Shown here: piece by piece, positions 4,886-13,359 of the stretch
Numbering within the stretch: the first letter of the stretch is position 1
How the letters are laid out: each line of letters opens with the position of its first letter
Notes under the pieces: generated by a model
Told to the model about the DNA's origin: nothing
What the model saw: the letters and a program-made list of their open reading frames with translations, nothing else
Databases searched by the model: none
Assembly (NCBI GenBank): GCA_001599295.1
Contig: BCGN01000001.1
Span: 1,364,001-1,428,000, forward strand
Length of the DNA stretch: 64,000 nt
DNA from: Sporopachydermia quercuum
Lineage: Eukaryota > Ascomycota > Sporopachydermiomycetes > Sporopachydermiales > Sporopachydermiaceae
Direction: 5' to 3'
Position numbers and translations under genes: made by a program

Positions 4886-5806
4886 TTAACGAATCTTCAA
4901 TCTCTTTGCAGCCTTTGACTTTCTCAAACTCTTAACCTTCTCGTTCAAGTTACGGGCTTTTTTGGTATTGAATAATTTCTGAGGACCATAGAAGAGGAAC
5001 TCATCCATATATTGTCGATCAAGGTTAAATTCCATGGTAGCAGCTTTATCGGTAAGGCCTAATCTTGCAACAATCATGTAATACTTTTTGGGATCATCTC
5101 TCTTCAAATATCTCAAGATCTTTTGACGTTGTTGAACCAGCATTCTGAATTTTCTTAAATTATGGAAATCTTTCTTATTTTCTTTAACATGTTCTCCCAA
5201 ATAATGAATCTTTGTAGTTAACACAGCAGCCTGAACTTCAGATGAACCAGTATCACCTTCAAATCTTTCAAATTCTTTAACAGTTAATCTGATAGCAGCT
5301 TTAATTTCTTCATCACGACTTGAGTTCTTCAGACTCAGAATTCTTTCAACAACCTGTCTTTTCTTTGCTTCTTCTTCTAAAACAACTTTACGAACTGTAG
5401 CATCATCAAAACTAGGATCACGATCAATTCTTTCTAAAGCAGCCTTTTGAGCACCATATAGCAATTTCTCGATTTCTTCCTTGGAATAGCCACGACTTAA
5501 TTCATCACCTTCTTTAACAGCAGCCACAATTCTTGGGACAAAAGATGAACTAGAATCACCAAATACGGGATCAATATCATATCTTTTCAAAGAACGTAAA
5601 GCATGAACCAACTTATTCATATTAGCTCGATGTCGAGCTCTGGATTTTCTCACAGTTCTCTTTAGAATGATTGGCTTTGGTCCTTCATTTACAACTGTAG
5701 AGCTGAAGGTTCTGACGGTTTGTTGGTTTATTCTTAAACATTGAATAGCTAAAGAATTGTTAACAGGCTTTACTTGCCTGCTTATTATACTCCACGCATT
5801 CCACAT
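4886..5806 (-). CDS. MRPS28: Mitochondrial small-subunit ribosomal protein uS15m
   Basis: 306 aa, against 286 aa for S. cerevisiae Mrps28. The S15 domain lies at about residues 185-275: FEGDTGSSEVQAAVLTTKIHYL, then HVKENKKDFHNLRKFRMLV and QRQKILRYLKRDDPKKYY. The first 40 residues are Arg/Ser/Gln-rich and nearly free of acids, as expected of a mitochondrial targeting sequence, followed by a charged helical region usual in fungal orthologues. The C-terminus is Lys-rich. It is divergent from TUB2. No intron is needed. Confidence 0.95.
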   Translation of the reverse strand: MWNAWSIISRQVKPVNNSLAIQCLRINQQTVRTFSSTVVNEGPKPIILKRTVRKSRARHRANMNKLVHALRSLKRYDIDPVFGDSSSSFVPRIVAAVKEGDELSRGYSKEEIEKLLYGAQKAALERIDRDPSFDDATVRKVVLEEEAKKRQVVERILSLKNSSRDEEIKAAIRLTVKEFERFEGDTGSSEVQAAVLTTKIHYLGEHVKENKKDFHNLRKFRMLVQQRQKILRYLKRDDPKKYYMIVARLGLTDKAATMEFNLDRQYMDEFLFYGPQKLFNTKKARNLNEKVKSLRKSKAAKRLKIR

Positions 5807-6793
5807 TATGAATATATTTCAGAGAAAATTGTCAATGCTAGTTATTAATGCTGAGTGCTGATAACTGGTGGTATTTATGAGAATTTCCAGTTCGGTTTAA
5901 CGTTTCAACAATTCCTTCTCCCAAGTATAGTGCTAGTGGGTTTGTGCGTGTGAAAAGACACAACTGGGAACACAAGACCTAATGAAATTGTACTTCCACT
6001 ATCCCGGCTGAACTACCCGTAATACAAAACACCAATGTTTATACAAAGGTCAAAAGAAAGACAGCTGATGTAAGAAAGCCCTTGCACACACAAAATCAAA
6101 AGACATTCTTCTACCACATTATGCTAATGTTGTGTTATTGGTTACTTGAAAGATTTTCGATGGTGAGAATCAAACTTGTCGACAGGAACGGAGGTAATTT
6201 GAGATATATAATGATCACCTAATCGTTTAATGAATGACACATCAACACCCGCCCACTCAACAACCGGGTAATTTTTGATTATGCCGTAAGGGTATATTAG
6301 TACGTCATGTGATCTCTGCTAAACCTTATGTATGTTTCCACCCTTGCAGGACTATACATGAATCATACATACAGTATAAAATAAACATGCTACAATAACT
6401 AGAAGAAAGACTCCATTTGATTATTCAATCGATAATATAATTCTTGATAATGCAGAAGTATTCCTGTTTCTCAATTTTAAGAAAAAAAGAAAAATACAAA
6501 ATTCTTTAATTTTCTTTTATTGTTCACTATACTTTGTATTTTCTATATTTTCAGAAGACTATAATAAGTTTGATTAATAGTATAGTAATTCATTTGATAT
6601 CATAAGGTACTTATCAGATAAGACGCGTTACATTGTGTGTTTACTTTTACAATTTGGCAGGTCCAACGAATACCAATATCAACAACAATTGAGAAGAACT
6701 GAAGTATATGATTGCAGTTTCAAAAACTTCAACAGACTGAACTCAAGATCAAAAGAGGATTTGTAACAAGGAACTGTTAATTGATTGTTTAAT
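5807..6793. promoter_or_regulatory. Divergent promoter region MRPS28 / TUB2
   Basis: 987 bp. An ACGCGT (MCB-like) hexamer lies at 6623-6628, 166 bp before the TUB2 start. Nearby 6480-6560 is strongly A+T-rich. No gene is seen. Confidence 0.45.
6623..6628. promoter_or_regulatory. ACGCGT (MCB-like) upstream of TUB2
   Basis: Perfect MluI cell-cycle box core upstream of the beta-tubulin gene. A single copy, so support for cell-cycle control is weak. Confidence 0.3.
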
Positions 6794-8734
6794 ATGCGTG
6801 AAATTATCTCTGTTCAATGTGGTCAAGCAGGTATGTGATTTAACGAATAATAACAGTCCCCAAGATTGAAAGGGCGAAAAGAGGAGCAGAGTCAAGGGAT
6901 GTGCTATAGGAATGAATCTGGAGCTGTCTGTTTATTGATACTAACAATTGTGCATTTGTTAGGGTATGTTCAAGAACTAGAACTCTTTTGGTTCGGAAAA
7001 CTTCGTTGATGTGCAGAAGAAGAGAATTGGATCGTCATACCATATCCGCTCTGACGAAGTGTTATTTGTTTGGATCTTCAGCATCCAATTGTCACACTGA
7101 TTATCTCATAATTCACAACATGATTTATGTTTAATTTTTTCTTCTTATTACTGCTATTGTTGTTTAAATGCTCTGCATGGGTTTTTTTTTCCTAATCACT
7201 AACATCCCATTCACCTATCTAGAAATCAAGTTGCTACTGCATTCTGGAGTGTAGTGTTAAAAGAGCACGGTATCGATGAACAAGGATTTCTATCACAGAC
7301 AAGTGACATCAATAATCGTCTGGATGTGTTTTTTGAGGAAGCAGGTCATAAAAAATATGTTCCCCGAGCAGTGTGTGTTGACTTAGAGCCAGCTACCATT
7401 GATAATATTCGTAGTGGTCCTTTAGGTAATCTCTTCAGACCTGATAGTTTATTATCTTCCAAAGCAGGAGCAGGTAATACCTGGGCTAAAGGTTTTTATA
7501 CAGAAGGTGCAGAAATTTTAGAACCAGTATTAGATATTATTAGACGTGAAGCTGAAAGTTCCGAATCTTTACAAGGTTTTCAATTGACTCATAGTCTGGG
7601 TGGTGGTACAGGTTCTGGTTTAGGCACTGCTTTGATTGGTAGAATCAAAGAAGAGTTTCCTGATCGTATGATTGCAACTTACTCTGTTTTACCAAGTCCT
7701 AAAGTATCTGATACTATTACGGAACCATATAATGCTGTTTTATCATTGAATCAACTGATTGAAAACAGTGATGAAACATTCTGTCTTGATAATGAGGCTT
7801 TGTACAATATTGCAGCCAGAGTATCCAAAAAGGATCCTGATTATTCAAATCTAAACAGTCTAATTGCAAATGTTATGTCTGGTGTTACAACTCCATTTAG
7901 ATTTCCTGGTCAATTGAATGGAGATCTCAGAAAATTGGCGGTTAATTTAATTCCTTTCCCAAGACTGCATTTCTTCACCGTTGGATACGCACCAATTATG
8001 AACACTGCTGGTAAGGCATTTCAAGGCTATTCAGCCCGTGATTTAACAAATCAAATATTTGATCCTATAAATACAATGGCTGCCTGCAATTTGAACGGCG
8101 GGAGATATTTGGCTGTTTCTGCAATTTACAGAGGTAAAATCTCTGCCAGTGAAATTGATGATGCTATTCAACATGCTAAATTCCAACGGGCAGGCTTATT
8201 TGTTGATTGGATTCCTAATAACATTCAGTACTCAGTTTGTGATAAAGCATCGTTAGTTGCAGATAAATCTGCTACATTTATTGCCAATACTACTGCTGTT
8301 CAGGAACTGTTCACTAGAAATATCAGTCAATTCTCAAAGATGTTCCGAAGAAAGGCATTTTTAGAATGGTACATCAGAGAAGGAATGGAAGAATTGGAGT
8401 TTGAAGAAGCCGAAAGCAATTTGAGAGATTTAGTCAGTGAATGTAAGTTGCTTTTTAATTGTTCCGTTATGTATAGTCAACAATTTAGCATCATACGCTA
8501 CCTAGGCTGCTCTTCGCTAAGCAACTTCTCTGCTTCGGTGAATTTTTTTTTTTTGTTTTTGCTTGTTTGTCTGATTGTCCTTGTGTACTAACATTAATTC
8601 TTTTAGATGAACAATACCAACAGGCGACAGCTGATGACGATTATGATTATGATGTTGACGTTGACGTTGATGTGGAAGTCGATGTTGAAGATGCACCAAT
8701 AGCAGAAGCTCAAGGTAATGAGGATGAGTTTTGA
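6794..8734 (+). CDS. TUB2: Beta-tubulin, divergent, with a one-nucleotide exon
   Basis: Exons 6794-6830, 6963, 7223-8442 and 8607-8734; total 1386 nt, 461 aa. Exon 1 encodes MREIISVQCGQAG; the glycine codon is G (6830) + G (6963) + A (7223), then NQVATAFW. Introns: 6831-6962 (GTATGT, TACTAAC 6939-6945, TAG), 6964-7222 (GTATGT, CACTAAC 7197-7203, TAG), 8443-8606 (GTAAGT, TACTAAC 8586-8592, TAG). The tubulin GTP motif GGGTGSG, RFPGQLN and the MFRRKAFLEWY segment are present. The protein is more divergent than usual for fungal beta-tubulin: GQAGNQ for GQCGNQ, AGAGNTWAKGFYTEG for SAGNxWAKGHYTEG. The C-terminal tail alternates Asp/Glu with Val. It may be a diverged second copy if a conventional TUB2 exists elsewhere. 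Confidence 0.93.
6963..6963 (+). other. TUB2: One-nucleotide microexon of TUB2
   Basis: A single G between a complete upstream intron (acceptor TTAG ending at 6962) and a complete downstream intron (donor GTATGT from 6964). Without it the summed exons are 1385 nt and the frame shifts, reaching a stop ten codons on. With it the universal Gly-Asn-Gln of beta-tubulin is restored. Splicing may be stepwise, the first intron being removed before the second donor is used. Confidence 0.8.
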
Positions 8735-9313: not shown

Positions 9314-12300
9314 TTAAACAGATTTAACAATCTTTGCAACCAAGTCACCGCCATCAACAGAATCACCTTCCTTCACTTGTAAATCAGAAACAAAACCTGA
9401 AACTGGTGCACTGATGATCATTTCCATCTTCATGGCACTCAAAACAACCACAGGATCACCCTTCTTGACTTCAGAACCATCATGAACTCTGACTTCAACA
9501 ATGACACCTGCCATTGGGGCACCCATTTCATTAGGGTTGTGAACATCAGCTTTCAATCTGCTAACGGTCTCAACAGCTGCTTTCTTATCTTCAACAGTGA
9601 CCTTTCGGATTTCACCATTAAGTTCAAAGTAAACTTCTCTAGTACCTGTTTGAAGGGACAAAGCACCAACAGCCATACATTTGATAATCAAAGTCTTACC
9701 CTTTTCAATGTCAACCCAAATTTCTTCATGAAGTTCTGGTGGAGCTAAGAAATATCTGGTAGGTAAAACCGATAAATCTCCGTATTTTTCAAGGAATGTA
9801 CGGAAGTCCTCGTAAACCTTTGGATACATATTATAACTGGCGACATCACAATCGGTGATTTTATTGAACCTGGATTGTAAATCTTCTTTGATCGCGTTCA
9901 TATCGAAAGGTTTCAAGTTCTTTCCAGGACGCTCAGTGAACTTTTCTCTCTTACCTTCAAGGATATCTGTTCTCAAAGGTTCAGGGAATCCACCGTAAGG
10001 TTGACCCATTAAACCTTGGAAGAAATCTAACACTGAAGCAGGGAAATCCAATGAACCAGCTCTCTTTTTAACTTCTTCAGGTGTAAGTTTGTTGGATACC
10101 ATGAATTGGGCAAGATCACCAACAACCTTTGAAGTAGGGGTGACCTTGACGATATCACCTAGCAAGTTATTAGCTTCAATATAAGCCTTTTTGGTTTCCT
10201 TCCATTGATCACCAAGACCAACTTGTTGAGCTTGGAACAAAAGGTTAGTCAATTGACCACCAGGAATCTCGTGATCATAGACTTCTGGATCAGGTCCCTT
10301 GATATCAGCTTCGAAACAAGAGTATAGCAATCTCATTTGAGCCCAATAACTGTCGATTTCCTTGATGTATGAAGGAGTTAAACCGGTATCGATACTTCCT
10401 TCTAATGAAGCCAGCAAAGCACTGATAGACGGTTGAGAAGTCATACCTGACATGGAATTGGTAGCAGCATCAACAACATCAGCACCAGCTTTAGCACATG
10501 CAGACATAGAGGCAACACCTGTACCAGCAGAATCGTGAGTATGAACATGGATTGGTAAATCAGGGTATTTTTCTCTGATGGTACCGATAAGTAAAGTGGC
10601 TGCAGCAGGTTTCATAGTACCAGCCATGTCTTTAATACCTAGAATATGAGTGCCCATTTCAACAATCTTGTCAACCATACTAAGATAGTATTGCAAGTTG
10701 TATTTCTTTTTAGGGTTCAACATATCACCAGAATAACAGACAGTGGCTTCAACCACACCGCCAGCTTTCTTCACTGCATCAACACCAACCTTTAACTGTT
10801 CAATATCGTTAAGAGCATCAAACACACGGAAGATATCAACACCATTATCTTTAGCTTGTTTGACAAAATGATCAATGGCATTATCAGGTAAAGAAGAATA
10901 AGCAACACCATTAGCACCTCTTAACAACATTTGGAACGGAATGTTAGGCACTAAAGCTCTTAACTTTCTAAGTCTGTCCCAAGGATCTTCATACAAGAAT
11001 CGCATTGCTACATCAAAAGTAGCACCTCCCCAACACTCTAAGGCAAAAGCATTGCCTAATCCGTGAGAAGTAGTAGATGCAATGTTTAGTAAGTCGATGG
11101 TTCTCACCCTTGTAGCTAATAAGGATTGATGAGCATCTCTCCAAGTGGTATCCATGATAAGAGTACCATCGTAATTACGAACAGCCTTCGCAAAAGCTTC
11201 GGGTCCCTTTTCAACCAAAATGTTTCTCCAACCCGTAGCACAAGGAACAGAAGTGTCGATTTCTTCACCAGTAGAAGGATCAACTAGAGTAGGTAATGTA
11301 GCTTCAACACTTAGCTTAGGTAAACCGGTTTGACCTTTGATGCTGGAGCCATTAACAGCCAAATCACCAAGATAAGCAAGCAACTTTTGAGCTCTGTTCT
11401 TAGAAGTAAGCATTTCAAATAATGATGGAGTATCGTCTATAAAAGTAGTCCAGACGTCACCTTTAATGAATGTTTCATTGGTCAAAAGAGCAATCAAGAA
11501 AGGAATGTTGGTTTTTACACCACGAATACGGAATTCAATTAATGATCGAATCATCTTTCTTCGAGCAATCTCGTGAGTAGCACCTGAGCATGTGCATTTA
11601 ACCAACATGGAATCATAATGAGGTGAAATCACTGCACCAGTATAATTGTTACCACCATCTAATCGAACGCCGTTACCACCAGATGATCTATACACTTCAA
11701 TCTTACCGGTATCCGGTTGAAAATTCTTTGTAGGATCTTCGGTTGTGATACGACATTGGATAGCAAATCCGCGAAGACTGATTTTGTTTTGGATTAATCC
11801 TAATTGTTCTAAAGACGCACCAGCAGCAATTTGAAGTTGAGCTGCAACAATATCAATACCAGTGATTTCTTCAGTGATAGTATGTTCGACTTGAATTCTT
11901 GGATTGATTTCAATGAAATAATGTCGGTTTTGATTATCGACTAAAAATTCAGCAGTACCAGCGCTTCTGTAGTTAACTGATTTAGCTAATTTGACGGCAT
12001 CTTGTAAAATGGCGTTTCTAACTTCTAAAGGTAAAGTGAGAGCAGGGGCCACTTCAACGACCTTTTGATGTCTTCTTTGAACTGAACAATCACGTTCGTA
12101 TAAATGGATTACGTTACCTTGGCCATCACCCAACAATTGAACTTCAATATGCTTAGGTTTATATAAGAATCTTTCAATGAAACATGTACCGTTACCAAAG
12201 GATGTTTTGGCTTCAGATGTGGCTCTTTGAAATGCATCTCCAATATTATCACCTTCATTAACAACTCTCATACCTCTACCACCACCACCATAGGCAGCTT

Positions 12301-13359
12301 TAATGATAACAGGATAACCGTACTGAGCAACAAAAGCTTCGGCTTCTTCGACAGTTTCAATTGGACCAGGAGTACCAGGAATAATAGGTACGTCATTCTC
12401 GATTGCCAGATTTCTGGCAGAGACCTTATCACCAACGGCGTCAATAACAGTATGAGGAGGACCAATCCAAGCCATACCAGCTTCTTCTACCTTTCTGGCA
12501 AATTCAGAGTTTTCGGATAAAAATCCGTAACCAGGATGAACCATATTAACACCATGACTCTTTGCAATGCTGATGATTTCGTCAATTTGCAAATAGGCTT
12601 GAACTGGAGAATATTGACCTTTTTTACCAATGACATAGGCTTCATCAGCCTTTAATCTGTGCATGGACAATCGATCTTCATGGGAGTAGATAGCAGTTGT
12701 GAAAATGGACAATTCATGGGCAGTTCTGAAAATCTGTTTACAGTTAGTATTTGAAAATGGGATTAAGAAGCAAATTCTCAATGGGTAGAACGATGAGTTG
12801 TTTTATTTGTTGAATGGGTTGAAGCATATTTGCGAGCTGAAAAACACAAAAATTTTTGAGATTTCCGATTCTTTTCTCGGGAATATAGTATATTCAACAG
12901 CCATTACAGCTTCTTTCTTGTTCGCAATATATGAAAGTGAATTGGCTGTTCGGTAAGAAGACGGCGGGGGTATCTTGATAGCAAGCAAGCATCAAGCATC
13001 AATCTAAAAACAAACTATCGAACGTCATATTTCTCTTATTCATAGATATAAACTCACTCTAATAGCTATTGATAATTGTTAGTATGCATGTATATCAGAC
13101 GTACCTATAGAACCGGGACAAGCTACTATGTATGCCCTACCCTCAGCAAAGAGAACCTACCAATTTCACCACGGTTTGCAACTAAAGCAATTTTTGTTAG
13201 TGTATTCATTTCCATTAGCAAAATTCGTCATCAGATTAAGAGAACCAAATCGACTATGAAAGTTTTTCAACACATACCTAAGATCTTATTGGCGCTTCCG
13301 CCCAACAAGTTGTTTTCCGATCGGATGTTTCCAAAGGATTTATTATGAGCAATTGACAT
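9314..13359 (-). CDS. PYC: Pyruvate carboxylase with an 8-nt internal exon
   Basis: Biotin enzyme making oxaloacetate from pyruvate, bicarbonate and ATP; cytosolic in yeasts. Exons on the minus strand: 13278-13359, 13161-13181, 13058-13065 and 9314-12733; total 3531 nt, 1176 aa against 1178 in S. cerevisiae Pyc1. Exon 1 starts MSIAHNKSFG and ends ANKIL; then V-ANRGEI, A-I-R from the 8-nt exon, then IFRTAHELS. Introns: GTATGT/CACTAAC/TAG, GTAGGT/TACTAAC/TAG, GTGAGT/TACTAAC/CAG. Domains follow in order: biotin carboxylase (KAAYGGGGRGMR, about 165), carboxyltransferase (MDTTWRDAHQS, about 570) and C-terminal biotinyl domain with LSAMKMEM, Lys about 1139. An upstream in-frame reading MRICFLIP just before IFRTA is intron, not protein. 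Yeasts may have one or two copies. Confidence 0.96.
13058..13065 (-). other. PYC: 8-nt microexon of pyruvate carboxylase
   Basis: CTATTAGA on the minus strand. The acceptor is CAATAG, 12 nt after a perfect TACTAAC; the donor is GTGAGT. With the split G from the preceding exon it encodes Ala-Ile-Arg, completing RGEIAIRIFRTAHELS, the conserved start of the biotin carboxylase domain. Confidence 0.85.

Follow-up and report, generated by a model that had tools for sequence, protein, structure and literature searches.

A probable one-nucleotide exon in a second, divergent beta-tubulin gene of Sporopachydermia quercuum

A single guanine in the genome of the budding yeast Sporopachydermia quercuum very probably constitutes an exon by itself. 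The base is located at position 6963 of the analysed window, a stretch of 64,000 nucleotides. Two successive U2-type splicing events of an ordinary kind would build it constitutively into the transcript of a second beta-tubulin gene. One-nucleotide exons as a kind are already known, although few are in print with evidence; the unusual elements are the host gene and the probable deep history of the exon. With its near-consensus signals, a budding-yeast tubulin case could provide a simple system for studying the handling of one-base exons and the order of intron removal.

Gene structure and splicing signals

The gene occupies positions 6794-8734 of the plus strand and contains four exons and three introns. 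Exon 1 (6794..6830, 37 nt) encodes codons 1-12 and the first base of codon 13 (MREIISVQCGQA-G), its 3' end being GCAG at 6830. Intron 1 (6831..6962, 132 nt, phase 1) runs from GTATGT to TTAG and carries the branch-point motif TACTAAC (6939..6945) approximately 19 nt from its end. The single G of exon 2 (6963..6963) is the middle base of Gly codon 13. Intron 2 (6964..7222, 259 nt, phase 2) likewise begins with GTATGT, ends with CTAG and has its branch-point motif, CACTAAC (7197..7203), about 21 nt from the end. Exon 3 (7223..8442; 5' letters AAATCAAG) opens with the third base of codon 13, and intron 3 (8443..8606, phase 1; GTAAGT...TACTAAC...TTTTAG) separates it from exon 4 (8607..8734), which encodes the stop and an acidic C-terminal tail containing DVDVDVDVEVDVED. 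The joined exons (6794-6830, 6963, 7223-8442, 8607-8734) form an open frame of 1386 nt that encodes a beta-tubulin of 461 amino acids, and the mRNA predicted from the 6830-6963-7223 junctions reads ...CAAGCAGGAAATCAAG.

Inspection of the sequence identifies a full yeast-type donor, branch point and acceptor in both intron 1 and intron 2; TACTAAC is the full yeast branch-point consensus. G 6963 thus stands in an AG-N-GT arrangement with a complete canonical intron on either side. It is part of a run of three G in the assembly (6962-6964), where the string AGGGT is present. The donors, branch points and acceptors, as well as the G itself, had been described in a sequence-only reading of the same DNA and are borne out by re-reading of the coordinates. 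The neighbouring genes lie on the minus strand: one for the mitochondrial ribosomal S15 protein (window 4886-5818), whose best named match, at 47%, is from Wickerhamomyces ciferrii and whose best match overall reaches 49%, and one that by eye encodes pyruvate carboxylase (window 9314-12802), its 5' end seemingly split off by an intron.

Requirement of the single G for the reading frame

G 6963 is needed for the frame and restores a conserved residue. Skipping of the base by a direct join of 6830 to 7223 (...CAAGCAGAAATCAAG) leaves ten further codons before a stop, i.e., a frame of 22 codons, while retention of either flanking intron also results in a stop. The sequence-only reading had anticipated the frameshift caused by skipping, which was found as described. 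Its further claims, the spliced length of 1386 nt as a multiple of three and the appearance of Gly-Asn-Gln only with the G, were confirmed by translation and by an enumeration of cassette exons. The enumeration covered AG-exon-GT units within 6831-7222 whose exon did not exceed 150 nt, which kept a distance of 30 nt or more from either end and which met no stop up to 8442. It yielded 21 frame-restoring cassette exons, of which three (6890 A, 6963 G and 7060 T) consist of a single base. Among these three, only 6963 is followed by GTATGT, preceded by CTAAC and restores Gly13. The A at 6890 was rejected, as it lacks a branch-like motif and would place Glu at codon 13; so was the T at 7060, where the donor is weak (GTTATT), the branch-like motif is no more than loose and codon 13 would become Val.

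A single intron could also keep the frame open, and 14 such GT-AG alternatives exist in the range tried. Removal of 6831-7230, using an AAG located 8 nt further on, results in an mRNA reading ...GCAGTTGCT and a protein devoid of Gly13-Asn14-Gln15. The frame is open, but the three lost residues, which are located at the nucleotide site in tubulins, are invariant in a 16-row alignment of the clade, and the nearer CTAG would have to be passed over; this solution is extremely improbable. Removal of 6835-7222 corresponds to a donor shifted by four bases: exon 1 would extend to 6834 and the GT at 6835..6836 would be joined to 7223, giving an mRNA of ...GCAGGTATAAATC. The frame is kept here too, with an additional Ile (GINQ), as in the public gene model of Nadsonia. 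Nevertheless, GTGATT is a poor donor beside GTATGT, and a full acceptor-donor unit (6939-6969) would go unused. The remaining alternatives lose or replace more residues. The one-nucleotide exon is the only reading found that uses canonical sites and yields Gly-Asn-Gln.

The probability of such a unit arising by chance was estimated from 200,000 shuffles of the intron interior that kept dinucleotides and left out the outer donor and acceptor; the patterns were set after the site had been seen, and the counts serve as guides. The strict unit (CTAAC, 5 to 35 nt, YAG, one base, GTA(A/T)GT) occurred in 15 of the 200,000 shuffles, and in 4 of 200,000 when the single base had to be G. Allowing exons of 1, 4, 7...28 nt raised the count to 101 of 200,000, and a looser one-base unit was encountered in 538 of 200,000. 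These counts bear on an assembly error, by which a base would be missing near 7222 and one intron of about 392 nt would be enough. The joints in question (TCTAGAAATC and TTAGGGTATG in the assembled letters) do sit in short runs of A and G, but a missing base leaves unexplained why a CTAAC-TTAG-G-GTATGT unit (15/200,000) lies inside the intron, and an error of this kind appears very unlikely.

Across the 16.4-Mb genome (12 contigs), CTAAC-N5-30-AG-N-GTATGT is not enriched, with 5 places, the site at 6963 included, versus 18 for the reversed control. The case for the one-base exon consequently relies on the frame, the residue and the signals taken together. Two of the other four places are AG-A-GTATGT units with CTAAC upstream (L010:1501-1529 and L008:1501-1520), the latter antisense to an open frame that looks glyoxalase-like by eye. 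No processed cDNA copy of the joined exons was found in the same genome at up to one mismatch.

Affiliation with the QCGQAG paralogue clade

The host gene was correctly recognised as a beta-tubulin in the sequence-only reading, but it is not the canonical copy. The canonical beta-tubulin TUB2 of S. quercuum is located on contig 2 (L003:343-2697). Five introns, many for a budding yeast, interrupt that gene, all inside its first 53 codons (after codons 4 and 16, plus three later ones), and none is located in codon 13. Their donors are GTAAGT or GTATGT, their branch-like motifs GCTAAC (three introns), TATTAAC and TACTGAC, and their acceptors TAG; the intron signals of the gene at 6794-8734 match them.

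The window gene is a second, divergent beta-tubulin that belongs to a separate paralogue clade, marked by a QCGQAG motif near the N-terminus. In the reconstructed tree, the window protein and 26 relatives (27 rows) are set apart from 18 typical beta-tubulins, namely 17 hand-picked fetched tubulins and the organism's own L003 protein, by a branch with support of 100/100 (one change on the tree); the QCGQAG group is a clade if the root falls among the typical rows. An assignment to the canonical fungal beta-tubulins (TUB2/benA) was rejected, as the window gene does not group with Saccharomycotina TUB2. Named members of the group come from Lipomyces, Dipodascopsis, Kockiozyma, Limtongia, Nadsonia, Geotrichum (TBB2), Magnusiomyces, Trichomonascus and Tortispora.

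The window protein has an end branch of 1.23, compared with a median of 0.19 in the tree, and this long branch makes relaxed constraint possible. On the other hand, 20 full-length group members are invariant in 165 columns, of which the window protein retains 157. It thus gives no impression of decay; judged by its sequence, the paralogue reads as a working but fast-evolving tubulin. The L003 TUB2 groups with those of Candida subhashii and Henningerozyma (100/99), which places the source organism among the crown yeasts. The QCGQAG paralogue seems to be rare in these yeasts, as far as the best 120 of 7948 and the best 120 of 8000 matches indicate. For a crown-lineage yeast, possession of a second, divergent tubulin may be out of the ordinary in its own right.

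Irregularities at codon 13 in gene models of relatives

The group comprises 30 records picked by eye from the search results (26 among the best 120 of 7948 matches and four added from the best 120 of 8000); the four records that start downstream of codon 13 were left out of the tree. An MREI-type start is present in 20 of the 30. Fifteen of these contain plain GNQ, and five have an insertion directly after Gly13: I in Nadsonia, T in L. tetrasporus, M in G. candidum, N in D. uninucleata and YISSS in Limtongia. The other ten records include two that start with MSIQ or MSVQ and have GNQ intact, four that break at codon 13 and the four that start downstream. Plain GNQ without a scar, as found in 17 of the 30 records, is uninformative with respect to the exon.

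Among the 155 tubulins fetched, 129 have an MREI-type start; Asn14-Gln15 is present in 123 of these and absent in six. The spacing is irregular in 5 of 20 group members and in 1 of 109 others (Fisher p 0.0003, a guide value, since related records are not independent), and the sole irregular tubulin outside the group lacks the stretch before GNQ.

The single inserted residues can be explained by faulty gene prediction. Exon 1 followed by GTAT, GTAC or GTAA, one base and AAT CAA can encode I, M, T and N. An extension by the first four bases of GTATGT gives GINQ or GMNQ, while GTACGT gives GTNQ and GTAAGT gives GNNQ or GKNQ. All four observed single insertions are among those encodable, which suggests that the gene finders used the GT four bases into the donor; in the window gene, the same false choice yields GINQ. 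The extra residue in the public models of Nadsonia, Geotrichum, L. tetrasporus and D. uninucleata might instead be taken as support for a genuinely shifted donor in S. quercuum. However, 123 of the 129 MREI-start tubulins contain no insertion, including the clade members P0052 and P0054 (longest contigs 44 and 172 kb), and the identity of the extra residue (I, M, T or N) differs between records, as would be expected of sequence derived from intron donors. Given also its poor donor, real use of the shifted site is hardly to be expected.

Other records point in the same direction. MWPGS-NQ in Magnusiomyces is obtained when ...TGTGGCCAGGCAG is fused directly to TAAC and translated in one of its frames, which implies a phase-1 end for exon 1 and a phase-2 start for its successor; the model seems to start out of frame, as if its start had been relocated to cope with an out-of-frame junction of exons 1 and 3. 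P0060, P0064 and P0075 seem to read through the acceptor; NQ is preceded in them by R, R or S, in keeping with AG|N AAY, and by eye P0060 and P0064 also allow CTAAC in register. The Limtongia insertion YISSS is, at a guess, a retained intron-2 donor; G+G+GTAYAT can encode GYI. For the relatives' DNA, as deduced from the models of Nadsonia, Geotrichum, Lipomyces, Dipodascopsis and Magnusiomyces, a phase-1 donor and a phase-2 acceptor that are one base short of each other would be implied. The same one-base gap, as implied by the models of several relatives, also argues against an assembly error in the window.

P0042, which sits with the Magnusiomyces row, is full length with GNQ, and its contig of at most 1538 bases barely exceeds the coding length; as a possible transcript, it lends weak support to exact splicing. 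Contiguous GNQ is found in eight rows of one subgroup (P0047, P0049, P0052, P0054, P0056, P0063, P0074 and P0080), with longest contigs of 21-172 kb for four of the eight, and this subgroup probably lost its introns at codon 13. A profile search for the relatives' DNA with the 26-row alignment gave six pattern matches in genome contigs and nine in viral contigs (one of eight viral scans), none of which was confirmed.

To judge from their translated sequences, the records P0041, P0046, P0050, P0051, P0062 and P0079 (Nadsonia, Lipomyces, Geotrichum, Limtongia, Dipodascopsis and Magnusiomyces) probably contain wrong residues or starts at codon 13. If the structure is indeed clade-wide, the beta-tubulin records of Geotrichum, Nadsonia, Lipomyces, Dipodascopsis, Limtongia and Magnusiomyces could be corrected.

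Proposed splicing and ancestry

Two consecutive U2-type reactions of the ordinary kind would be sufficient to join G 6963 to its neighbours. Whichever intron is removed first, the G would become fused to an adjoining exon (GCAG+G, or G+AAATC); the second reaction would then see a normal intron and no steric problem would arise, so that two spliceosomes need not share a single base. The G would provide the codon of Gly13, a residue of the conserved GQxGNQ segment, with its middle base. Of the two branch points, the one preceding the G (TACTAAC) matches the consensus better, in agreement with inclusion of the base rather than its skipping.

The sequence-only reading had proposed that omission of the G acts as a tubulin dosage switch, in the manner of a poison exon: deliberate skipping would lead to an early stop and less tubulin. 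The idea is compatible with the one-base exon, and skipping does produce a stop after ten more codons. This property is, however, common to any essential exon of one nucleotide, the branch point before the G has the full consensus that favours inclusion, and nothing points to skipping or to its regulation; a regulatory role is accordingly unsupported and very unlikely.

A frame ratchet probably keeps the putative constitutive one-base exon where it is. Loss or displacement of just one of the two introns would disrupt the frame, and escape would be possible only by the simultaneous loss of both, such as by cDNA-mediated gene conversion. If the structure is clade-wide, the case would illustrate how such exons can persist, as the loss of one intron breaks the frame, which joint loss does not.

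The irregular models of relatives suggest that the one-base exon is ancient in the QCGQAG clade. It is likely, though less so than the exon itself, that the G has been kept in the paralogue since near the root of Saccharomycotina, with Lipomyces and Dipodascopsis, Nadsonia, Geotrichum, Magnusiomyces and S. quercuum as the lineages concerned, and that faulty public gene models have hidden it. The models would conceal the exon by inserting a residue, starting out of frame or dropping the N-terminus at codon 13. If so, we know of no older example from a fungal nuclear gene, and the exon would offer a natural test of how a frame ratchet preserves an intron pair.

Comparison with known one-nucleotide exons

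The sequence-only reading had regarded such exons as extremely rare, with one known from Arabidopsis APC11 and none from a yeast. Among the titles and abstract openings listed by a literature search, no one-nucleotide exon in a yeast nuclear gene or in a tubulin was apparent, and a term search gave no literature on the tubulin introns of Geotrichum or Lipomyces. The precedents are nevertheless wider than APC11 and include plant VPS55 and Fusarium CYP621A.

The closest counterpart is CYP621A from Fusarium, in which Nelson and Syed (2026; PMC12940212) describe a one-nucleotide exon in 20 orthologues (24 genes in their discussion), with 18 SRA reads from two species, and claim the first fungal gene with such an exon. 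As in the window, a single G in a fungal nuclear gene forms the middle of a Gly codon within a conserved motif, in an AGGGT context. Nearly all gene-model transcripts are reported to be wrong at the joint, where a phase-one boundary cannot be joined to phase two (PMC12940212). The authors propose that loss of a base at an exon edge and adoption of a cryptic AGGGT, the string also present in the window, may create such exons (PMC12940212). In contrast to this P450 of filamentous fungi, which has been documented by reads (PMC12940212), the exon of the budding-yeast tubulin paralogue is predicted from the genomic sequence and shows signs of deeper ancestry.

Plant APC11, first described in Arabidopsis (Guo and Liu 2015; PMC4674806), similarly contains a constitutive 1-nt exon that is needed for the frame and was missed in annotation (PMC4674806, PMC8831610). 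It is reported to be kept in most land plants, with intronless copies in some lineages; unlike the case in S. quercuum, the base is A in Arabidopsis and has been proven by constructs and cDNA (PMC8831610, PMC4674806). The 1-nt exon of plant VPS55 is also well conserved, and its annotation loses the N-terminus, as in several records of the QCGQAG clade, but there the exon goes with alternative transcripts or with one copy where the gene is present twice (PMC8831610). A genome survey from 2011 mentions unconfirmed 1-bp exons in some of the genomes analysed (PMC3064661), while PMC8208691, as judged by a term search, cites one-nucleotide exons in the references only.

Adjacent introns are known from further systems. 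In Ophiostoma mitochondria, one base likewise separates neighbouring fungal introns, there the group II introns rnl-576 and rnl-577; these are organelle introns of the self-splicing type in a ribosomal RNA gene, with no reading frame at stake (PMC12308204). The [D] stwintrons of Lipomyces, an early-branching yeast, resemble the window gene in that adjoining U2 introns at a single intron position are spliced out one after the other, but there one intron sits inside the donor of a second (PMC7138796), whereas both introns of the window gene are complete and a base is retained. A [D1,2] stwintron was rejected for the window gene, as removal of intron 1 leaves GCAGG|GTATGT with the donor already whole and no rebuilding from halves. 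A recursive, zero-nucleotide splice site was rejected as well, because the AG does not abut the GT. Recursive splicing shares the stepwise removal through an acceptor beside a donor, but its ratchet points juxtapose the two (PMC8605326), while in the window one coding base lies between them.
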